Below are positions 2 to 58,924 of a DNA stretch of 58,924 nucleotides, one piece after another (position 1 is the stretch's first letter; each line of letters begins with the position of its first letter). The notes under the pieces are model-generated. The model had not been told where the DNA came from and did not search any database. It saw only the letters and a list, made by a program, of their open reading frames with translations. The position numbers and the translations under genes were made by a program. The stretch is from Planctomycetaceae bacterium (GTDB lineage: Bacteria > Planctomycetota > Planctomycetia > Planctomycetales > Planctomycetaceae), in assembly GCA_021732415.1 (NCBI GenBank), contig JAKFVC010000143.1:1-58924 (forward strand). The letters are read 5' to 3'.

Positions 2-1078
2 GGGAATGCCCAACGCGGGGGTTTCGGGGGTGGCTTGTCATCCAAGAACGAGCCCGGTAAATCTTCGCCTGGAAATGCTGCGATGGGGCCCTTCAGTCAC
101 AGTGGAGCAGGTGCCAAAGCCGGCGGTGCTGGAGGAGCAGGCAGTGGTGTCGGTTTCCGACCTGGCGCGGGCGCTGGTACTGCCGGAACGCGCGGTGCCG
201 GTGGTCCAGCGAGCGGCGTCGGCTTCAGGCCGGGAGCAGGTGCCGGAAAGGCCGGTGTGGGTACAGCAGGAGTCGGAGGTCCCGCCAGTGGAGTCGGGTT
301 CCGACCGGGAGCAGGAGCCGGTGCGGCAGGCGTAGGAGGAGCGGGAAGCGGTGTCGGTTACCTTCCCGGAGCTGGTGCCGGTGCGGCCGGAACGCCCGCG
401 ACTCGCGCTGGAACTTACTACAATTCCTCAGCAGCATTGGCCGCGCAGTCGACTGCCGTCCGAGCAGCCACGACGTATCCTTCCTACAATGCAGGACTCT
501 ATGCCGGTTATCCCAATGCCTGGCCGGCGAATAATCTCGCCTACAATTCTGTCTACTATAATCCCGGATATCGGGCCGTCGCGGGTGCGGTGGGACTGCC
601 TGGCACACCCGTGCTCTATGACTACGGCGGTAACGTTGTCGCCCAGTCTGGTACAGTCTATGTGAACGGTGATGCATCCGGAACGTCTCAAGAATACGCG
701 GACCAGGCCAGCCAGCTCGCCAGCAACGGTACCGCCGATCCCGCGGGTGATTCCAAATGGATTCCCCTGGGAGTCTTCGCGGTTGTAGAAGGCGACCAAA
801 CCAGCTCGGACGATACCTTCGAACTGGCCGTCAATGCAGATGGTATTATTCGCGGGAACTACCACAATATCCGCAACGATCAGGTTTTGCCTCTGTCCGG
901 TGCGGTCGACAAGTCCACACAGCGTGCGGCTTGGACGATCGCTGGAGACAAGTTCCCGATCTACGACTCGGGCATCGCCAACCTGACTAAGGATTCAACT
1001 CCCGTCTATGTTCACACGGATGACGGACAATCCCGGCAACTCGCCCTGATTCGCCTCAATCAGCCGGCTCAACAGTAG
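2..1078 (+). CDS. Gly/Ala-rich repeat protein with conserved C-terminal domain (5' partial)
   Basis: The frame is open to the left edge, so the start lies outside the window; an in-frame TTG at 35 is possible but the reading frame continues upstream. The N-terminal part seen here is Gly/Ala-rich, with four imperfect copies of SGVGFRPGAGAG (the last reads SGVGYLPGAGAG) encoded near 144, 212, 286 and 348, about 62-74 nt apart. A Tyr/Asn/Ala-rich stretch follows. The last ~115 residues form a compact region opening WIPLGVFAVV and ending just before the stop. That C-terminal region resembles a domain I recall from many planctomycete exported proteins (memory, not checked). The Gly-rich part suggests a surface or structural protein, but no function can be assigned. 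Confidence 0.8.
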   Translation, partial: GNAQRGGFGGGLSSKNEPGKSSPGNAAMGPFSHSGAGAKAGGAGGAGSGVGFRPGAGAGTAGTRGAGGPASGVGFRPGAGAGKAGVGTAGVGGPASGVGFRPGAGAGAAGVGGAGSGVGYLPGAGAGAAGTPATRAGTYYNSSAALAAQSTAVRAATTYPSYNAGLYAGYPNAWPANNLAYNSVYYNPGYRAVAGAVGLPGTPVLYDYGGNVVAQSGTVYVNGDASGTSQEYADQASQLASNGTADPAGDSKWIPLGVFAVVEGDQTSSDDTFELAVNADGIIRGNYHNIRNDQVLPLSGAVDKSTQRAAWTIAGDKFPIYDSGIANLTKDSTPVYVHTDDGQSRQLALIRLNQPAQQ

Positions 1079-1158
1079 GTTGATGTGGGCCGAGGCCAGT
1101 CCCGAATGTGGCGTCACGCTGAATCCCTGCGGCGAACGACCTTGAAATCGTCGATCCT

Positions 1159-1560
1159 GTGAAAAAGACCCTGCTCATTGTGACGGCGGTGCTCGAAGCG
1201 GCGACCGGTGTCGTGCTGCTGGTATCGCCATCTGTCCCGGTCTCGCTGCTGCTTGGTGTTTCGCCGGAGTCGCCCGACGGAGGGACCGTGGCGCGGATCG
1301 CCGGAGCCGCGCTGATCTCATTTGGGATCGCCTGCTGGCAGGCGCGTCAGCTGCAGCAGAACGACGCTCTGCTCATCGCGATGTTGGCCTATAACATCAA
1401 TGTCGTCGCAGTTCTTACACATGCCCGACTGGCCCTGACTCTCTTCGGCAGCGGATTCTGGCCGGCCGTGGGTTTACACACGACATTGGCAGCGTGGTGC
1501 ATCGCCTGCCTCTGGCCAGTGGCCGACGCTACAAAAGACGTTGGTGGGCGCAGACGCTAG
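1159..1560 (+). CDS. Small multi-pass membrane protein
   Basis: A 133-residue protein from a GTG start, with about four hydrophobic segments (near residues 4-26, 45-58, 72-88 and 100-122) and few charged residues between them, so an inner-membrane protein is likely. I do not recognise the family. Its last codons and stop lie inside a palindromic repeat: the C-terminal VGGRRR and the TAG are encoded by the left half of the GCAGACGCT/AGCGTCTGC element at 1550-1570. The natural C-terminus may therefore have been replaced when the repeat arrived. It stands alone between the Gly-rich gene and a minus-strand operon. Confidence 0.7.
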   Translation: MKKTLLIVTAVLEAATGVVLLVSPSVPVSLLLGVSPESPDGGTVARIAGAALISFGIACWQARQLQQNDALLIAMLAYNINVVAVLTHARLALTLFGSGFWPAVGLHTTLAAWCIACLWPVADATKDVGGRRR

Positions 1561-1570
1561 CAGCGTCTGC
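1550..1570. repeat. Family A palindrome, single copy
   Basis: Stem GCAGACGCT, loop AGC, stem AGCGTCTGC, perfectly paired, followed by CACGG as in other copies. It carries the stop codon of the gene ending at 1560. The variable third stem pair is A-T here. Confidence 0.85.
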
Positions 1571-1575
1571 CACGG

Positions 1576-1617
1576 AGTCCCATTGGTCCTATAGGTCCCA
1601 TGATTTAAATGGGACTT
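1576..1617. repeat. GTCCCAT 9-nt periodic repeat with hairpin
   Basis: AGTCCCATTGGTCCTATAGG followed by TCCCAT, then ATGGGACT, so 9-nt units are iterated and the ends can pair. A similar run occurs at 40052-40100. It sits in the gap between the convergent genes ending at 1560 and 1775; the rest of that gap holds nothing recognisable. Confidence 0.5.
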
Positions 1618-1774
1618 TATGAAAAGCACCGCAATTGATGTGATCAATTCTGATTTTTGGCGGGCGACAACACGACCTTTAAAGCAGCCAATGTCCCGAA
1701 GCTAATGCCGCCGGGCTCGCCTGCTAATTTAGCAGTGCCCGAAGCGACTCCGAGATATCTCAACAGGACTTCTT

Positions 1775-2737
1775 CTAATCGGGCAACCCCACCAGATATA
1801 GATCGTGCTTGCCTTCAATCTCGCTAACTACGACTAATCGTTTCCCATCAGGATGCCACTCGGCATAGTCGTCTCGGCCTTCGTTCTGTGTGATTCGCTG
1901 CAGGTTGGAACCATCGCCGTTCATCACGTAGATCTCGGCATTGCCGTCGCGATGACTCGTGAAGGCGATGCGTTGACCATCGGGTGAGAACCGCGGCCGG
2001 ATGTCTTGCAGTGGATGGTCTGTCAGTCGTCGGACATCCGAACCATCGGGTTGCATGCGATAGATCTCAAAGTTCCCATCGCGGCTCGAGCCAAACACGA
2101 TCGAACGCCCATCGGGTGAGTAGGACGGCCAGTTATTGAGCCCGGTCGATTCGGCCAACGCCTTGCGGTCCTCGCCATTCAGTTGCGATGAGTAAATCTG
2201 CTGGGTGCCGCGCTCGGCGTAGGAGAAGATCAGCCGAGAGTGGTCCGGCGACAGCGCCGGGCTGCGGTAACCGCAGAATCCGCCCCCAGGGAGGATCTCG
2301 TTTAGGACGGCCCCTTGTCGGTCGCAGACAGTCATCCCGATACTCAGGACGCCGCGCAGTTTACAGAAGACATAACGCTCACCATCCGCTGACCAGGCCG
2401 GCTCGAATTCGGCGGAGGTCGATTTGGCGTGGAGCAGCTCATTGGTGCCATCGGCCAGGACGAGTCGGCGCAGTTGAAACAATGCCGCGTCCGTGAATTC
2501 TGCGTACACTAACTCCTTGCCTCCGTCTCGGAAGACGGGGCTCGACTTCTGCCGGCCGTCGCGCGTCAGTTGCTGGGGTTCCGCAGCGGTTGCCGTCGTG
2601 GCACCCAACATAAGGCAACACAAGGCAAGCGCAATGCTCGCCCCGTGGCCGACGCTGCCAGCGTTGGCGTCAGTTGCAAAAGCGCCGACGCTAACGCTGG
2701 CAGCGTCGGCCACGGGGGCATATTTAGAGGAGCGCAT
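1775..2737 (-). CDS. Exported TolB/PD40-type beta-propeller protein
   Basis: The C-terminal ~270 residues hold repeated blades with the motif pattern of WD40-like/PD40 repeats (YSPDGRSIVFGSSRDGNFEI, FSPDGQRIAFTSHRDGNAEI, WHPDGKRLVVVSE), as in the TolB propeller. A hydrophobic signal-like stretch (IALALCCLMLGATTATAA) precedes the first blade. The ATG at 2737 has a good GGAAGG ribosome site and overlaps the end of the upstream DUF1501 gene by 14 nt. That start makes about 26 N-terminal residues (VADAASVSV... to VGHG) the translation of a family A repeat pair. An ATG at 2611 would avoid the repeat but has no ribosome site and leaves a very short signal peptide. It is the third gene of a gntR-DUF1501-propeller operon. 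Role: probably periplasmic binding or scaffold, otherwise unknown. Confidence 0.8.
   Translation of the reverse strand: MRSSKYAPVADAASVSVGAFATDANAGSVGHGASIALALCCLMLGATTATAAEPQQLTRDGRQKSSPVFRDGGKELVYAEFTDAALFQLRRLVLADGTNELLHAKSTSAEFEPAWSADGERYVFCKLRGVLSIGMTVCDRQGAVLNEILPGGGFCGYRSPALSPDHSRLIFSYAERGTQQIYSSQLNGEDRKALAESTGLNNWPSYSPDGRSIVFGSSRDGNFEIYRMQPDGSDVRRLTDHPLQDIRPRFSPDGQRIAFTSHRDGNAEIYVMNGDGSNLQRITQNEGRDDYAEWHPDGKRLVVVSEIEGKHDLYLVGLPD
2641..2718. repeat. Family A inverted pair, inside coding sequence
   Basis: The left arm at 2641-2665 (CCCCGTGGCCGACGCT and on) is a perfect 25-bp inverted match to 2693-2717. Each arm contains its own GCCGACGCT/AGCGTCGGC-like hairpin. The element begins just after the stop of the DUF1501 gene and is in frame with the propeller gene. 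Confidence 0.9.
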
Positions 2738-4055
2738 CGATAACCTTCCCATTGGCAAGCACGTTCATCTCCGCGCGGGCCTGAGTATCGATACCAGCCA
2801 GGTGTGCGATGGTCGTCCCGACCATCAGTGGCGACACCACGTCTCCCAGCGGAGATTCCCCCAGCTTGTCGCTGGTCCCGATGACTCGGCCCGGTTGCAC
2901 GCCGCCGCCGGCCCAGATCGAGAAGTAGCAGGGAGGCCAATGGTCACGAGACGCATTCGGGGTGATCCTGGGAGTCCGCCCGAATTCGCCCATCATCACG
3001 ACCAGGGTGTCATCGATCAGACCGCGGTCATAAAGGTCGTCCAGTAACGCCGAGAATGCTCGATCGAGCGTCGGACAATGCTGGTCTTGAAGCAACTCGA
3101 AATTATAGACGTGGGTATCCCAACCGAGTTCAAATCCGGGATTGATGGCCTCGGGATGCCGGCTGTAGTTCAACTGCACGTAGGGCACGCCGGCCTCGAC
3201 CAGACGCCGTGCAAGCAGACTGCTTTGCCCGAATGTCGTGTAGCCGTAGCGGGCACGCGTCTCGGGAGTCTCACGCGTCATATCAAAGGCTTGTCGTGCC
3301 GCTGGATTCAGCAACAGGTCGTAGCCCGACTGCATATTACGAGTCCACGCCAGTTGCTGGTGCTGGTCGGCCCGACGGGCGGCCGTGTCGAGTAGCGCCA
3401 ACAATTGGCGGCGATCTTGAACGCGTAACGGATTGAGTTGATCCAGAAGTTGGAGGGCCGAAAGTTTAACTTCCCCGCCTGCCGAACATCCCACGAGGAA
3501 CGGGTCATGAGCCTGCGACAGAGTGCCTCCGCCATACCCTTCAATGCGACGACTCGCATCGGCCAGCATGCCGCTGGTTATCGAAAAGAACGGCGGCAGG
3601 GTCCCTTGATTGCCGCGGGCCTTTGCCACAATCGACCCGAAGTTCGGCTGCACGGGCGTGGGCACTTCCGCGAACCCCGTCAAGGCGACCGTGCCTCCGT
3701 CTGGATGTCCGGGTGCGGTCGTCGCATGGGTGCGGATCAACGAGTATCGGTGACTGCGGCTGGCAATCCTCGGCAACATTTCTGTGAAGTGGACTCCCGG
3801 GGTGCGTGTCGGGATCACTCCAAACGGACCGCGATATTCCACTGGTGCATTCGGTTTCGGGTCGCACGTGTCGAGATGACTCGGAGCTCCCCACAGGAAA
3901 ACAAATATCACCGACTTGGCGCGCGAGCCTTGCGACGCCTGGGCGAGACCACCAGTCAGCCCCAATCCCAACGGAACCGAAGCCCCCAGTTTCAAGAACG
4001 AACGACGACTGACGCCATCGCACGTTCTCGCTTGAAACGATCCGATGTCGAGCAT
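2724..4055 (-). CDS. DUF1501 family protein, Tat-exported
   Basis: A 443-residue protein with a twin-arginine signal (SRRSFLKLG at residues 16-24) and the body typical of DUF1501 proteins, an alkaline-phosphatase/sulfatase-fold family abundant in planctomycetes: FVFLWGAPSHLDTCDPKP early, PYVQLNYSRHPE in the middle, and VVMMGEFGRTPRI near the C-terminus. Its substrate is unknown; such genes commonly sit beside cytochrome-domain (DUF1549/DUF1553) proteins, which are absent here. Its ATG follows the TAA of gntR with no intervening base, and a GAGGAC ribosome site lies within gntR, so translation is probably coupled. A paralogue lies at 40104-41489. Confidence 0.92.
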   Translation of the reverse strand: MLDIGSFQARTCDGVSRRSFLKLGASVPLGLGLTGGLAQASQGSRAKSVIFVFLWGAPSHLDTCDPKPNAPVEYRGPFGVIPTRTPGVHFTEMLPRIASRSHRYSLIRTHATTAPGHPDGGTVALTGFAEVPTPVQPNFGSIVAKARGNQGTLPPFFSITSGMLADASRRIEGYGGGTLSQAHDPFLVGCSAGGEVKLSALQLLDQLNPLRVQDRRQLLALLDTAARRADQHQQLAWTRNMQSGYDLLLNPAARQAFDMTRETPETRARYGYTTFGQSSLLARRLVEAGVPYVQLNYSRHPEAINPGFELGWDTHVYNFELLQDQHCPTLDRAFSALLDDLYDRGLIDDTLVVMMGEFGRTPRITPNASRDHWPPCYFSIWAGGGVQPGRVIGTSDKLGESPLGDVVSPLMVGTTIAHLAGIDTQARAEMNVLANGKVIDALL

Positions 4056-28261: not shown

Positions 28262-28400
28262 GTGGGACGGGTCTCCAGGCCCGTCAGTGTCGATCGTGTG
28301 TGACGCCGACGCTATGCAGCGTCGGCCCCGTGGCGGACGCTGCCAGCGTCCGTGCAATGTGCAAATTATGGGCATGGACGGGCCTGGAGACCCGTCCTAC
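28262..28400. repeat. Nested repeats: family B pair enclosing two family A copies
   Basis: Family B ends: GTGGGACGGGTCTCCAGGCC at 28262 and GGCCTGGAGACCCGTCCTAC ending at 28400. Inside are two family A hairpins, GCCGACGCT/AGCGTCGGC (28305-28326, C-G variable pair) and GCGGACGCT/AGCGTCCGT (28333-28353, the only G-C pair). This fills the prkA-yeaH gap. Confidence 0.9.
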
Positions 28401-28423
28401 CGCGCACCGAGGAGGGCCAAATC

Positions 28424-29533: not shown

Positions 29534-29600
29534 CGTAGCCCGACTCTCTGAGTCGGGTGCTCAGCACTTCAAGACACCCGACTCAGAGAGTCGGGCTACG
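29534..29600. repeat. Family C inverted pair inside the prkA operon
   Basis: CGTAGCCCGACTCTCTGAGT to 29559 and ACTCAGAGAGTCGGGCTACG from 29581 to 29600; 26-bp perfect arms. The first base follows the yeaH stop codon, and the right end is immediately followed by the AGGA of the spoVR ribosome site. Confidence 0.92.
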
Positions 29601-31489: not shown

Positions 31490-31984
31490 ATGTCACTCAT
31501 AACTCAGTTGCTGCAAACCTTGCAGGGGATGGCCGGTTTTGCCGGCCCAGGCGTGCAAACCGTCAACGTCACCGAACCTGCCGATGTCCATCTCGAGTTG
31601 GATGTCACCACGGCCGAACGCTACAGTTGCGGCTTCCGTGAACTGCGTCTCAACGTGCCACCGTTCTCGCACACGGCTCCGGGGCAATTGAAACAGTGGG
31701 CCGATGATGTCTGCCAGCGCGTGACCTACTTGCTGGAACAACTCGACACGATCGAGTTCGATCCGCAGACGGGGCAGGCCCAGATTCGTTCTACCCGACC
31801 CGACGTGCAGGCGGACCAGACTCGCTATTACGAAATCGTCCTACAGATGCCGGGGCAGTTGCGGTTGAACCGCTATCAGGTGATTCCCGGAATGCCGCGT
31901 GAGCAGATCGATGTGCAGGCCACGCACGAGGTACTGCAGAAGCTGGTTCCCGATTTGGTGCAGACAGCGCTGACAGGGAAATAA
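31490..31984 (+). CDS. Conserved hypothetical protein
   Basis: A 164-residue soluble protein with no signal peptide and no motif I recognise. The middle alternates strands (VHLELDVTTAERYSCGFREL, YYEIVLQMPGQLRLNRYQV) and helices (QLKQWADDVCQRVTYLLEQL). GAGGAGG precedes the ATG, so translation is likely strong. It stands alone between the spoVR operon and the lipase gene, followed by a family D repeat pair. Confidence 0.75.
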   Translation: MSLITQLLQTLQGMAGFAGPGVQTVNVTEPADVHLELDVTTAERYSCGFRELRLNVPPFSHTAPGQLKQWADDVCQRVTYLLEQLDTIEFDPQTGQAQIRSTRPDVQADQTRYYEIVLQMPGQLRLNRYQVIPGMPREQIDVQATHEVLQKLVPDLVQTALTGK

Positions 31985-32110
31985 TTGGGACTGCGGTGGT
32001 TCAATCACCGCTTTCTAATTGGAAACGACGTGCTGTTTTGTTGGGACCTGACATTCTCCGTGAGGTTTCCCTCAGCAAAAGCGGCGATGAATCGCCGCAG
32101 TCCCAATTAG
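31982..32110. repeat. Family D inverted pair with compensatory change
   Basis: Left copy contains GCGGTGGTTCAATCACCGC; right copy contains GCGGCGATGAATCGCCGC. Compared with GCGGTGAT/ATCACCGC at 10147, the right copy has changed T-A to C-G on both sides of the stem. It overlaps the stop codons of both convergent neighbours. Confidence 0.85.
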
Positions 32111-38875: not shown

Positions 38876-38885
38876 CGGTGAATCC

Positions 38886-41646: not shown

Positions 41647-42885
41647 TCACGCGTTACGCTCCGTCCCCCACGCCTGGGCCAACTCGACGAGCACCTTCGC
41701 ACAATTCTCCATTTCCTCCACACAGGTCCATTCCAGCGGCGAGTGCGGGTTGTGTTCGCCCGTGGAGAGATTCGGTGTCGGCAAACCCAGTTCCGTCAAC
41801 CGCGAACCGTCTGTCCCCCCGCGGATAATGGCGAGATTCGGCTCCAACCCCGCGGCTTCCGTCGCTTCTACGGCCTTCGGCAAGGCTCGCGGTTCCCGTT
41901 CCAGACCGTCCCGCATATTGCGATATTGTTTGCGAATTTCGATCTGGATCGTCGCGCGAGGATGTTTCAACCGTAGTTTCGCAGCAATGGCTTCCAGCGA
42001 TGCCGCATAGTCCGCCAGCGCCGCCGTTTCGAAATCGCGCAGGATCATGCGGGCCGACGCCAGTGCGACTCCGCCTTCGATCTGATAGGGATGAATGAAG
42101 CCTTCCCGGTCGGCGGTCGTTTCCGGGGACAGTCGGTCGGACGGCAACTGGGCGAGGAACTCGCTCAGAATCCGGATCGCGTTGACCATCTTTCCCTTGC
42201 CGATCGAGGGATGAATATTGATCCCGGTCACCGTCACGACAGCCTGATCCGCCGAGAACGTTTCAGAATCAATCCCACCCTCGCCGTCACCGTCGAGTGT
42301 GTATGCACACACGGCCCCGAGCTTCTGCAGATTGAGATGATCGACGCCGCGCCCAATTTCTTCGTCGCACGTGAAGCAGACACGAATTGGCCCATGCGGC
42401 AACTCGGGATGCTCCATCAAGTAGGCGGCGGCCGTCATGATCACCGCGACACCCGACTTGTCGTCTGCTCCCAGTAACGTCGTCCCATCGGTCGTCACCA
42501 GTGTCTTGCCGATCAGGCCGAGCAAGTCGGGATTGTCCTCGACCCGGATCACCTTGGTGGGATCAGCAGGCAGGACGATGTCACCGCCGCGATAGTTGGT
42601 GATGACCTGCGGATCGACATTGGTCCCCGTCGTTTCCGGAGACGTATCGACATGGGCCAGCCAGGCAATTACCGGCACCGGGGCCCCCAGTGTCGCCGGA
42701 ATGGTGGCCATCACGATGCCATGTTCATCCAGGCTGACGTCGTGCAAACCCAGCTCATCGCATTCATGCTCGAGCAACCGGCACAGATCCAACTGCTTGG
42801 CAGTACTGGGGACAGCCTGGCTGGTTTCGTCGGACTGAGTATCGATGCGCACATAGCGGAGGAAGCGTTCCAGTAACAACGACAT
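41647..42885 (-). CDS. pepT: Peptidase T (tripeptide aminopeptidase)
   Basis: A 412-residue cytoplasmic M20-family zinc peptidase. Metal and catalytic motifs in order: AWLAHVDTSPE (His and Asp), LLGADDKSG (bridging Asp), CFTCDEEIGRGVDH (Glu-Glu), HPSIGKG, and the C-terminal IRGGTDGSRLTELGLPTPNL. It removes N-terminal residues from tripeptides. Length and motifs match E. coli PepT. ATG 42885 has AAGGA upstream. Confidence 0.95.
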   Translation of the reverse strand: MSLLLERFLRYVRIDTQSDETSQAVPSTAKQLDLCRLLEHECDELGLHDVSLDEHGIVMATIPATLGAPVPVIAWLAHVDTSPETTGTNVDPQVITNYRGGDIVLPADPTKVIRVEDNPDLLGLIGKTLVTTDGTTLLGADDKSGVAVIMTAAAYLMEHPELPHGPIRVCFTCDEEIGRGVDHLNLQKLGAVCAYTLDGDGEGGIDSETFSADQAVVTVTGINIHPSIGKGKMVNAIRILSEFLAQLPSDRLSPETTADREGFIHPYQIEGGVALASARMILRDFETAALADYAASLEAIAAKLRLKHPRATIQIEIRKQYRNMRDGLEREPRALPKAVEATEAAGLEPNLAIIRGGTDGSRLTELGLPTPNLSTGEHNPHSPLEWTCVEEMENCAKVLVELAQAWGTERNA

Positions 42886-42985
42886 GAGCGATCCTTCACA
42901 AGGAGTTTTTCTAAGAGGTTCAGACTGCCATAATTATGATAGCAATGACCGGGTGTCGAGGGATAACGTCGGCAGACTCGTCCAG

Positions 42986-43216
42986 ATTTGGACTGCGGTG
43001 ATTCATCACCGCTTTCCAATTGGGGTAATGCTGAAAAAATGGCAACCGTAAGCTTGGTCTGACGAATACAAGCTCGAAGCGCAAGCGAGTGCATTGCGGG
43101 CTTTCATTAAGGGGAAAATGCACTCGCTTGCGCTTCGAGCTTGTATCTTCGGTTCATCCGTTACCGGCAAGTCGAACGTGAATAGGAAAGCGGTGATGAA
43201 TCACCGCAGTCCAAAT
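42986..43216. repeat. Nested repeats: family D pair enclosing a family F pair
   Basis: Outer arms (32 bp, perfect) at 42986-43017 and 43185-43216, each holding the palindrome GCGGTGAT/ATCACCGC. Inner arms (30 bp, perfect) at 43066-43095 and 43117-43146, core CGAAGCGCAAGCGAGTGCA. This is the main content of the 400-bp gap between pepT and the gene ending at 43288. Confidence 0.93.
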
Positions 43217-43287
43217 TACGGAAACAGCCCGGCTGCAAGTGGCAACCGGGCTGCGGGTATCATCTCAAATATTGAACAGATTCGACC

Positions 43288-44661
43288 TTAGTATTCCTTG
43301 GTCTTGTTCAGACCAGGCTGCGGCACGGGATACTTGCCATCCGCACTGGCCAGGATCGGCGCGGGGCCGTCCAGGGTCAGCTTGTCGACGTCCGGGGCAA
43401 ACTCGTGTTCGCTGTTGAGGATGTCGTCGTACTTGATGATCTGGCCGGTATGGGCAGCCATACGACCCATCGACGTCACCAGGCTCGCTTCGGCGCCGCG
43501 CTTGGCTTCGTTGTACGGCTTGTTCTCGCGAATCGCCGCAATGAGGTGATCCCATTCCAATTGGTAGGGATTCGGTTCTGGGGGCGGGTAAGCCCACAGC
43601 AGGTTTTCTTTGGTCATCTGCTGGTTCTTGTAGAGCCGGCACTTCGACGGGGCATGGCCCGCTTGCGAGATGACCCCTGAGCCCTTCGAACCGTGGATGT
43701 AGCTGGCGAATTCCTGATGACAACCTTCCATCAGGCGGCCGTCCATGTACATCTTCGTGCCGTCGGCGAACGTATATTCCGTCGAATAGCTGTCGAAGTT
43801 CTGGTCGATATTGTCGCCGCGGAAATGACGTCCACCTGAAGACTTGGCTTCGACCGGCCAGGCATCCTTCATCCAGCACATTTCGTCAATGTTGTGAATG
43901 AGGAAGTCGCTGTATGCTCCGCCGCTCGCCCACAGGAAAGCGTGGAATTCCTGAATCTGGTACATCAACTCGCTCATTTCCTTGGGCTTCGGACCGCAGA
44001 AGGCATGAGCGGTGGGACCAGCCATCCGGTAGCCGCGGAGCAACAGGATATCGCCGATTTCGCCATTGCGAATGCGATCAAACATCTCACCGCGAGCCTT
44101 ACAGTGCCGGCACATCAGACCGACGCCGACCTTGAGGTTCTTCTTGACCGATTCTTCAGCCAGGGCCAGCATCTTGCGAGTGGTCGGGCCGTCGACTGTG
44201 GTCGGCTTCTCCATGAAGACGTTCAAGTCCTTCTGGATCGCATAGGTGAAATGGACCCAGCGGAAGGCCACCGGTGTGGTGAGAATGACGATATCACCGG
44301 GACTCAGGCAATCCATGGCCTTCTTGTAGCCATCGAATCCGATAAACCTGCGGTCTTCGGGAACGTCGACCTTGTCGCCGAACGCGTTCTTGATCGACTG
44401 GTGGCTACTCTTCAACTTGCTCTCGAAGACGTCGGCGATAGCGACCAACTTGATGGGGCCATTCTGGACCGAGAGAGCATTCTGTGCGGCACCGGTACCA
44501 CGACCACCGGCGCCGATGAGGGCCACCTTGATCGTGTTGTTTTCGGCGGCGTGGACATGTTGCGGAATCATCACCCCGGCCAAAGCAGACGCGGCGGCAA
44601 TTTTTCCAGACGTTTTCAGTAGTTCGCGACGTGACATGGAGTCGTTCATGGCTTCGCTCAT
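43288..44661 (-). CDS. Gfo/Idh/MocA-family oxidoreductase, Tat-exported
   Basis: A 457-residue protein. A Tat-type signal (SRRELLKTSGKIAAASALAG) precedes a nucleotide-binding fold, VALIGAGGRGTGAAQNAL at about residue 44-61, with KDLNVFMEKPTTVDGPTTRKM as the catalytic EKP motif of the family. These enzymes oxidise or reduce sugars and cyclitols with NAD(P); exported forms are common in planctomycetes. A possible partner is not adjacent. ATG 44661 has AAGGGA far upstream; the ATG at 44649 is also possible. Confidence 0.92.
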   Translation of the reverse strand: MSEAMNDSMSRRELLKTSGKIAAASALAGVMIPQHVHAAENNTIKVALIGAGGRGTGAAQNALSVQNGPIKLVAIADVFESKLKSSHQSIKNAFGDKVDVPEDRRFIGFDGYKKAMDCLSPGDIVILTTPVAFRWVHFTYAIQKDLNVFMEKPTTVDGPTTRKMLALAEESVKKNLKVGVGLMCRHCKARGEMFDRIRNGEIGDILLLRGYRMAGPTAHAFCGPKPKEMSELMYQIQEFHAFLWASGGAYSDFLIHNIDEMCWMKDAWPVEAKSSGGRHFRGDNIDQNFDSYSTEYTFADGTKMYMDGRLMEGCHQEFASYIHGSKGSGVISQAGHAPSKCRLYKNQQMTKENLLWAYPPPEPNPYQLEWDHLIAAIRENKPYNEAKRGAEASLVTSMGRMAAHTGQIIKYDDILNSEHEFAPDVDKLTLDGPAPILASADGKYPVPQPGLNKTKEY

Positions 44662-45574: not shown

Positions 45575-45649
45575 GACAGGTCGGGTTCCAGCGGCGCGAG
45601 TACGATGTGCCTATTCTAACATCGGATCGATGGGGAGGAATGACTAATG

Positions 45650-45785
45650 CCTAATGACTAATGTCTAAAAGGAGGAAAGGATTTGCCCGTTTGGCAGCCG
45701 AACGAAATCAAACCATCTCTTTCTGGCTGGTAAATGGACACCGCATAGGATCCGCGGTTCCTCCTTTTAGACATTAGTCATTAGG
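45650..45785. repeat. Inverted pair with 28-bp perfect arms, overlapping a gene end
   Basis: Arms at 45650-45677 (CCTAATGACTAATGTCTAAA and on) and 45758-45785, spacer 80 bp. The right arm contains the stop codon of the minus-strand gene ending at 45781. Confidence 0.93.
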
Positions 45786-46524
45786 ATTTAGTCATTTCCG
45801 CCTCCTGTTGCGGCCTCAGATGGAAGTCAATCACCAGCGGCAGATGGTCCGACGCCTGCCGCGTCAACGGGCTCCTGACGACTCCGGCGTGACGCACATC
45901 GATGTCGCCGTGAAAGAACGCTTTATCGAGCGATCCCAATGCCAGGTACGCCGGAAACGACCGGAAATGCGATGGTGGCGCCGTGATCTGGCGAAAGCCG
46001 TGTTCGTGAAAGGGGACCTTCCACAACTGATTCCGCCAGTCGTTGGTATCGCCGATAATCATGGTCGGATGATGAATGGCCTCGCGAAAGAGCCGATGGG
46101 CCAGCAGATGCTTCGACTGCCACAGTCGCATCCGCGCTGTCAGGCTGAGATGCCAGTTGACGATCTGCAGCGGCCCTTCCGGAGTATCCACCAACGCGAG
46201 CTGCGCGCCTCGCGGTTTTGCTTCCTGGTACCGCAACGAGATGTGATGGTGGGACAGGAACGGCCAGCGCGATAGCACCAGGTTGCCGTAGCCCCCCTCT
46301 TTCAGATGGACATTCAACTGATAGTCGTACGAGGCCACCCGAAATTGTTCAGCCAGCAAGCGGGGTTGATCATCGTGCCGGGAACGACGGACGTTGCGGT
46401 CGACCTCCTGCAGGCAGATCAGGTCCGGATTCTGGCTCTCGATGACCGAAATAATCCGTTCCAACGAGTATTGCCGGTCGGTACCGCCAATCCCCTTATG
46501 AATGTTCCAACTGAGGATACGCAT
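45781..46524 (-). CDS. Endonuclease/exonuclease/phosphatase (EEP) family protein
   Basis: A 247-residue protein with no signal peptide. EEP motifs in order: LSWNIHKG with LICLQEVDR (metal-binding Glu), IVNWHLSL, MIIGDTND (Asp-Asn), and RQASDHLPLVIDF (catalytic Asp-His). It is a Mg-dependent phosphodiesterase of the DNase I/ExoIII fold; the substrate could be nucleic acid, phosphoinositide or lipid. The last residues EMTKS and the stop are encoded by an inverted-repeat arm, so the C-terminus may be repeat-derived. Confidence 0.9.
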   Translation of the reverse strand: MRILSWNIHKGIGGTDRQYSLERIISVIESQNPDLICLQEVDRNVRRSRHDDQPRLLAEQFRVASYDYQLNVHLKEGGYGNLVLSRWPFLSHHHISLRYQEAKPRGAQLALVDTPEGPLQIVNWHLSLTARMRLWQSKHLLAHRLFREAIHHPTMIIGDTNDWRNQLWKVPFHEHGFRQITAPPSHFRSFPAYLALGSLDKAFFHGDIDVRHAGVVRSPLTRQASDHLPLVIDFHLRPQQEAEMTKS

Positions 46525-47021: not shown

Positions 47022-47031
47022 CCAGGGCATC

Positions 47032-47281
47032 GTGGGACGGGTCTCCATGCCCGTCCGTCAAACGCGAGCAATCGGGACGCGCGTTCTTTTGAAGAGCGCT
47101 ATCCACAGATTTCGCAGATTGACGCAGATGAATTCGAACAAAGCCGCAGTGAAGACGCTCAAGAGCGTTGACCAAATCTGCGTCAATCTGCGAAAGAAGA
47201 AATACGACGGCCGGGGCGGCCATCCTACCAGTCTGCTGCGCAGATTGACGATGGACGGACGGACCTGAAGACCCATCCCAC
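47032..47281. repeat. Nested repeats: family B pair around a CGCAGATTGACGCAGAT pair
   Basis: Outer family B at 47032-47057 and 47257-47281; inner 20-bp perfect arms at 47110-47129 and 47176-47195 (TTTCGCAGATTGACGCAGAT). It fills the gap between tRNA-Leu and the LutA-like gene. Confidence 0.85.
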
Positions 47282-47286
47282 GGCCA

Positions 47287-48122: not shown

Positions 48123-48195
48123 TTTTCTCCGTGTCTCCGTGGTGAAAAATTTAATTCATTGCACCACGGAGACACGGAGAACACGGAGAGGAAAA
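48123..48195. repeat. Inverted pair, family E (CACGGAG)
   Basis: TTTTCTCCGTGTCTCCGTGG to 48144 and CACCACGGAGACACGGAGA to 48195. It lies in the 309-bp gap between divergent genes, otherwise without features. Confidence 0.88.
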
Positions 48196-50046: not shown

Positions 50047-50074
50047 GTAGGACGGGTCTCCAGGCCCGTCCCAC
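50047..50074. repeat. Family B palindrome, single copy
   Basis: GTAGGACGGGTCTCCAGG then CCCGTCCCAC: nearly a complete palindrome, with stem GACGGG/CCCGTC. It lies between two co-directional genes. Confidence 0.8.
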
Positions 50075-58742: not shown

Positions 58743-58924
58743 GATCAAAGGGGGCAAAGAAGTCATCCCTCACGCACAATCAAAGAGATCAAAGAAGTTC
58801 GAAGGGGTCGAAGAAGTTCGAAGGGATCAAAGAAGTCGAAGGGATCAAAGAAGTTCGAAGGGATCAAAGAAGTCGAAGGGATCAAAGAAGTCGAAGGGAT
58901 CAAAGAAGTTCGAAGGGATCAAAG
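58743..58924 (+). repeat. 18/19-bp tandem repeat running off the right edge
   Basis: Units GGGATCAAAGAAGTTCGAA (19) and GGGATCAAAGAAGTCGAA (18) alternate irregularly from 58823 onward: 18, 19, 18, 18, 19, then a partial unit. Degenerate units reach back to about 58743. The length variant is a single T in the TTC, so any frame would shift. It continues beyond the window. Confidence 0.92.

Follow-up and report, generated by a model that had tools for sequence, protein, structure and literature searches.

Two dispersed palindromic repeat families, one inserted in the other, in a Planctomycetaceae genome

How does one perfectly matched inverted repeat come to lie inside another, and what do the perfect arms say about the history of the structure? 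The window analyzed here, a contig (C39) of 58.9 kb (58,924 nt) within a 9.87-Mb genome of 350 contigs, raises this question at positions 42986-43216. With many small palindromic families in one genome and insertion turnover in a close relative, two questions become directly countable: (i) whether REP-like elements have a preference for hairpin loops when they insert, and (ii) whether inverted arms are kept perfect by conversion or by selection.

As the initial annotation had described, a D-family pair with 32-nt perfect arms (42986-43017/43185-43216) surrounds an F-family pair with 30-nt perfect arms (43066-43095/43117-43146). The description of F as lying "exactly inside" D holds for its placement in the D spacer but not for exact centering (relative position 0.56). 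The D arms extend to 36 nt if one mismatch is allowed, and measured from these the spacer contains 44 nt on the left of F and 34 nt on the right. The family names A, B, D, and F are those of the initial annotation; C, E, G, H, I, J, and the numbered families come from the present analysis. The features of the locus are as follows:

41647..42885, minus strand: M20 peptidase gene, flanking (PF01546 1.2e-13, PF07687 3.5e-10)
42986..43216, unstranded: D element with F inside; 231 nt in total and 150 nt after removal of F, compared with a family consensus of 146 nt
42986..43017, plus strand: D left arm, 32 nt, perfect; contains the palindrome GCGGTGAT-TC-ATCACCGC
43018..43065, unstranded: left part of the D interior, decayed, family-related; its first base is just inside the 32-nt perfect arm
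43066..43146, unstranded: F element within the D spacer; perfect arms of 30 nt around a 21-nt loop
43147..43184, unstranded: right part of the D interior, ending at the 32-nt perfect arm
43185..43216, minus strand: D right arm, 32 nt, perfect
43225..43253, unstranded: short hairpin with 8-nt arms (CAGCCCGG), starting 9 nt past the D edge
43288..44661, minus strand: Gfo/Idh/MocA-type oxidoreductase gene, flanking (PF22725 2e-5, PF01408 9.9e-5, both slightly below the curated cut-offs)

The nest is thus intergenic, between two co-directional minus-strand genes. The peptidase gene, which we take to be PepT, has its closest named relative in a MAG labelled Planctomicrobium piriforme (93% amino acid identity). 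Hairpins of this kind are not chance products, since six stretches contained 27 hairpins with arms of at least 18 nt and none after shuffling of their letters, and since the minus-strand RNA of 42980-43222 folds with -133 kcal/mol (z -18.3). A wrong assembly join at the nest is possible, given many-contig assemblies and repeats, though the arms are short. At the far end of the window, an 18/19-bp tandem repeat (TCGAAGGGATCAAAGAAG) occupies positions 58762-58924, up to the contig end.

Insertion of F into a copy of D

Both families are dispersed. The 21-nt core of D has 60 exact occurrences in the genome (27 forward, 33 reverse; none for the reversed control), and the 26-nt arm has 117 matches at no more than three mismatches, 100 of them listed. 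The 60 cores correspond to 46 loci; those read were 43 fetched loci and two in the window, with C192 left out and the decayed copy at 31982 added. Pairs were found in 31 of the 46 places, with a core spacing of 105-120 in 19 cases, 53-96 in four, 141 in one, and 190-309 in seven, and each of the seven enlarged pairs holds another hairpin element. The remaining 15 places, which lack a pair at four mismatches and a spacing under 330, include six solo palindromes and the decayed pair at 31982. Wider pairs exist outside the 31: one in C99 (L366; core spacing about 430) surrounds a family-0 hairpin, and two further ones are among the matches listed (C9:63228/63449 and C32:44779/45097). In the fetched DNA, a search for D ends 350-3000 apart, as a parent transposon would have them, gave three pairs, namely L228 and L213, which represent the same D-E-H nest, and L366.

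The 19 un-nested copies gave the 146-nt consensus, with a column identity of 0.946 and 0.923 across the outer 36 nt. The lower identity of the interior (0.593), still above the 0.40-0.43 of five shuffled-interior controls, marks it as homologous though decayed. Each D arm is a hairpin in itself. Stronger conservation of the arms than of the interior was considered as proof of upkeep and dropped, being equally expected if mobility needs the arms only.

F is an independent element of ~81 nt, found at 26 places in the genome at no more than one mismatch. Its arm spacing is 50-53 in 10 of 11 F pairs, and in L178 it is enlarged to 246 by an insert. Excision of F raises the profile score of the D copy in the window from 49.7 to 101.2, above the maximum of 96.3 for 200 shuffled-interior versions. 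The copy therefore fits the D profile once F is excised, and F was inserted into it, although the test does not single out the exact F boundary (rank 15 of 77 excision starts). Judged by sequence, F is the younger insertion in the D spacer.

The nest could alternatively be one composite element that spread as a unit, and composite families do exist in this genome (families 0 with 5, 15 with 16, and 17 with 24). However, at no more than five mismatches F occurs in none of 40 D loci (L020-L059) and D in none of 17 F loci (L170-L186), and the six other nested D pairs enclose elements of other families. A composite D-F unit is thus refuted within the fetched set, and we regard it as having almost no chance of being correct. 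The distributions of the two families differ. Among 101 sampled genomes of the bacterial family, including our own, D was found exactly in two (60 occurrences here and 15 in G003), and it is absent at no more than two mismatches from G001, G002, and G011. F at no more than one mismatch was found in 10 (237 in G002, 114 in G003, 63 in G060, and the 26 here), hence D is the more local family.

Turnover and matched arm changes in sister genomes

The orthologous site was sought through the oxidoreductase gene in four relatives (G001, G002, G003, and G011), two of which align into the intergenic space. In G003 (98% amino acid identity for the oxidoreductase; 92% nucleotide identity over 1662 nt), the alignment runs from the gene through the conserved short hairpin to position 43210, which falls within the last seven bases of D, and then diverges; an H-family pair (GTAGGATAGGCATCC...) occupies the site instead. 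In G002, which belongs to the same genus (83% nucleotide identity), yet another hairpin is found. Neither D nor F was detected at no more than five mismatches at the orthologous site of G003 or G002. Both informative relatives of the four tried thus lack the two elements, so that the outcome which the initial annotation had set against its own reading, namely the same nest at all orthologous loci with neutral divergence in the arms, did not occur here. The flanking peptidase was not found in G003; as the contig that holds the site there does not include its left flank, loss or replacement of D in that genome is also possible. The arms of the short hairpin at 43225..43253 are identical in G003 and differ by one base in G002 (alignment read by eye). 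The D edge (window 43210-43222) and the H pair of G003 (L218 275-290, G003:C551) have ends that differ by no more than about one base, both near this same hairpin, as if at a hot spot.

Turnover was scored across 11 syntenic blocks between the window and G003. The relevant features are:

28262..28400, unstranded: second nest, a B pair around A; B arms of 33 nt at 85%, with a perfect 21-nt core
29534..29600, unstranded: C element, also present in G003, where the two arms show matched changes
31982..32109, unstranded: decayed D copy, present in G003 at this site too, with a matched change in the two arms, TTTGGACT/AGTCCAAA vs TTGGGACT/AGTCCCAA
38884..39117, unstranded: B pair, missing at the orthologous G003 site
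47031..47282, unstranded: third nest, a B pair around a hairpin; B arms of 29 nt at 86%

In addition, the element at 48125-48181 is missing in G003, and position 50047 carries a solo B palindrome in the window and an H pair in G003. The two other nests noted initially (28262-28400 and 47032-47281) proved real, but their B arms are not perfect. The inner hairpin of the third nest (47110-47195) has 20-nt perfect arms; the A part of the second has arms too short for inclusion in the nest tallies. G003 keeps the A part and the right B arm of the second nest and lacks the left B arm. After the shared right arm (window 28400-28411), G003 has about 930 extra bases that look coding by eye.

One candidate for stepwise nesting at a single orthologous site, from D around E (L030) to D around E around H in G003 (L228), was not counted as proof: the D-E linkers align weakly (z 3.9 and 1.5, compared with 7.5-10.4 for two other shared D copies), and independent nests or an exchange of the interior are therefore possible. 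Within the D pair of L228 (414-640, G003:C229), the arms of E and H are continuous as one 65-nt stem (94%), H being placed on the symmetry axis of E.

Co-variation of the arms was analyzed in seven inverted pairs from G003 loci that align to our genome across the whole element. Among 191 paired arm columns (a few gapped), 18 changed on one side and seven on both. The two-sided changes, which make up seven of the 25 variable columns, are all complementary, whereas 0.45 would be expected if the arms changed independently (P 5e-7); when a tandem-heptamer element and a coding repeat that arose by chance are excluded, four are left against 0.17 expected (P 3e-5). Both are Poisson values, blind to alignment choice, and the sequences are related. 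In an inverted pair of heptamer-like units (AATGACT) at window positions 45639-45796, G003 has G for T at three arm positions and the opposite arm is changed to match, a concerted change.

Since arms common to the sister genome co-vary, perfect arms do not prove youth and are unusable as a clock for such elements. The initial annotation had taken them to imply recent formation or active homogenization; the latter, or some other form of upkeep, is favored, and recency does not follow. The co-variation comes from other elements, the D-F copy being without an ortholog, and it suggests that arms are kept matching after insertion rather than being merely new.

Template switching homogenizes inverted-repeat arms (PMC8794818; also PMC8604942) and would explain both the matched changes and the lasting perfect pairing, though it is not proven here; in this work, it is described for RNA genes and yeast coding DNA, not for bacterial mobile palindromes. 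Compensatory changes in REPINs are already published. A somewhat unlikely alternative is that selection on an RNA hairpin, such as a terminator or an mRNA-stability element, keeps the arms matched, rather than template switching in DNA. The site between co-directional genes and the strong fold would suit such a role, and three of the four matched changes in the conservative set are T-A to C-G, reachable stepwise via a wobble pair, so that conversion and selection are not separated by these changes. On the other hand, four of all seven matched changes are unreachable via wobble, though three of those four are in one tandem-repeat element; an Rfam scan of 42886-43290 gave no family at threshold; and several elements are present in one sister genome and absent from the other (B at 38884, that at 48125, and D-F), which is unlike the behavior of a conserved regulatory hairpin.

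Relation of D and F to REPINs, MITEs, and Y1 transposases

REPINs are inverted REP doublets with RAYTs (Bertels and Rainey 2011, PMC3116915), and they resemble D and F in having conserved inverted arms, a less conserved spacer of important length, an intergenic location, and many copies. As in a REPIN, the spacer between the conserved arms is variable and has a set length, seen in 19 of the 31 D pairs and in 10 of the 11 F pairs. D and F differ from REPINs by longer arms (30-36 nt), by having no cognate transposase found, and by the missing GTAG tag of classical REPs, which is not at the arm starts of D (AATTTGGACT) or F (ATACAAGCTC). Families A, B, C, H, and I start with or near GTRG.

Y1_Tnp matches were found 13 times in our genome and eight times in G003. 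Five of these 21 Y1 loci show the REPIN/REPtron arrangement of a Y1 gene bracketed or flanked by a repeat. Single B arms bracket a RAYT-like gene in L019 (1077-1894, G000:C40; span 818 bp), and single E arms bracket another in L374 (622-1274, G003:C557; span 653 bp); I pairs lie on both sides of the Y1 gene of L016, and C pairs on both sides of those of L018 and the G003 locus L376. By eye, the L019 and L374 proteins are unlike each other (PHWRQ.GAT type and WTTYGTWLPGD type). With the families tested, no such arrangement was seen at the other 16 loci. At no more than five mismatches, neither D nor F is near any of the 21 loci (up to 1.5 kb on each side, several cut by contig ends), and in this set neither family flanks a RAYT gene. 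Also in G003 (C557:7564-8354), two exact F arms in inverted orientation span 791 bp, a distance similar to that between the B arms and the E arms around their Y1 genes, and an F transposase may lie inside.

Terminal inverted repeats and a length of 70-300 bp are also features of MITEs, and both D and F have them. Their size of 81-146 nt, the long terminal inverted repeats, and the fact that no Y1 gene was found near either family would fit ordinary MITEs moved by DDE transposases, with no tie to RAYT/REP biology. We nevertheless consider this explanation improbable: in the 31 D and 11 F pairs, target-site duplications of 2-9 nt do not rise above shuffled pairing; like a REP, each arm of D forms a hairpin of its own; and other similarly built families bracket Y1 genes. 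The 48 B pairs likewise gave no significant excess over shuffled flanks; the nearest to significance was a 4-nt duplication (4 seen vs 1.5, P 0.06). Because neither family is near any of the 21 Y1 loci and no target duplication is significant, we describe D and F as working like REPINs and do not file them as GTAG REPINs. To our knowledge, HUH transposases of the IS200/IS605 kind leave no target duplication. These enzymes act on single strands (PMC8266576).

The reading that we prefer, with a probability of about 0.7, is that D and F are independent REPIN-like palindromic mobile families that land in each other's spacers. A D copy would have landed between the peptidase and oxidoreductase genes in the lineage of our genome, and an F copy would have landed later in the D spacer. 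Both families most likely spread as single-stranded hairpins via HUH (Y1/RAYT-type) transposases without target duplication. Insertion of the next element would be tolerated, and possibly favored, in the spacer or loop of an existing hairpin. Complementarity of the arms would be upheld either by template switching in replication, with one arm serving as the template of its partner, or by selection that preserves the hairpin.

Frequency and position of nests

The D-F nest is of a known kind, as REPs within palindromes are published, and nests in Planctomycetes are possibly published too. The study of Di Nocera and colleagues 2013 (PMC3733652) describes longer palindromes with REP dimers inserted in them (A. 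variabilis and H. neapolitanus), small palindromes that contain REPs (T. roseum), and DNA inserted between dimer partners; it also reports that Planctomycetes have GTAG repeats and that Y1 genes (TIRYT) have TIR families unrelated to REPs. In A. variabilis and H. neapolitanus, that study found no host palindromes without REPs, whereas in our genome host and guest each form a dispersed family, the nests are counted against expectation, and sister-genome states are compared. The insertion sequences ISPsy8 and ISRm22 insert at the symmetry axis of REP hairpins, according to Tobes and Pareja 2006 (PMC1525189). Our guest, unlike these, is a small palindromic element too short for a transposase gene, and the 3-bp target duplication of ISPsy8 is not seen here. 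Among the matches listed in a literature search on nested bacterial elements, none was on bacterial MITEs by title.

Nests were counted in a sampled fifth of the genome with a gene caller and a family clustering made for this analysis. The discovery set (61 stretches, 1.26 Mb, 265 kb intergenic by the home-made hexamer gene caller) contains 409 inverted pairs in intergenic DNA; 31 families have at least three members, there are 94 nested pairs, and the nests involve many family pairs. The fresh set (40 stretches, 800 kb, 162 kb intergenic) contains 243 pairs. For the expectation, each element was moved within its own intergenic region with gene margins of 0, 20, and 40 bp, and composite families were dropped. 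B around family 8 was dropped as composite in the discovery count and kept in the fresh-set and later center tests, as its linkers are unrelated. The numbers of nested inner elements, with margins of 0, 20, and 40 bp, are:

Discovery set: 44, 43, and 43 vs 23.5, 27.5, and 30.2 expected (P<=0.0001)
Discovery set, families of five or more: 24 vs 14.4, 17.1, and 18.9 (P 0.0004, 0.005, and 0.02)
Fresh set: 26, 26, and 25 vs 17.5, 20.5, and 21.6 (P 0.001, 0.02, and 0.10)
Fresh set, families of five or more: 21, 21, and 20 vs 14.5, 16.7, and 17.5 (P 0.005, 0.04, and 0.16)

Overall, nesting is 1.2-1.9 times the within-intergenic expectation. These counts bear on neutral accumulation, in which elements would insert anywhere in intergenic DNA with no hairpin preference, and nests would arise since spacers are spare, gene-distant bases. 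We hold this to be a serious possibility, although one short of even odds. Both sets exceed the expectation at 0 bp, and the discovery set keeps its excess at 40 bp (P 0.0001); among the 31 D pairs, hairpins were found in seven interiors and none was detected in the flanks (counted irrespective of coding content). Neutral accumulation is favored by the fresh set at the 40-bp margin, where significance is lost, by D as host alone, for which seven nested pairs of 31 vs 3.45 expected give P 0.06, and by F, for which one pair of 11, that of the window, lies inside another inverted pair and the other 10 are un-nested.

The position of the inner units is divided in the same way. In the fresh set, the mean distance of the inner unit from the loop center is about 0.135, compared with 0.25 for uniform placement (n=21, P from 4e-5 up to about 1e-4); nine of these 21 cases belong to families 11 and 20. 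Without these two families, the bias weakens to 0.191 in both sets together (n=35, P 0.007) and to 0.191 with P 0.08 in the fresh set alone (n=12), as neutral accumulation would allow. The proposal of the initial annotation that the spacer of one pair is a preferred target of the next finds partial support in the excess and the central bias, but loses ground as the excess shrinks with the 40-bp gene margin and with the D and F counts given above.

Our preferred reading of independent families landing in each other's spacers could be extended to a genus-wide ecosystem, in which the extruded or single-stranded hairpin apex would be the preferred landing site for the next family and the arms would be re-matched by template switching. 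We consider this extension rather doubtful. Such hairpin-apex targeting would build nested hairpins, of which the three-layered D-E-H nest of G003 would be an instance.

The strong central-targeting result was not retained, as it leans on family 11, copies of which are repeatedly central in long elements of B and E, in some cases with related linkers. Family 11 hairpins (GGGTGCCACTGGCTGTGCCAGTGC) are often near the exact center of these elements (L347, L348, L340, L300, L349, and others), where they are flanked by TCAATCAATA / GCTTCAATA motifs.
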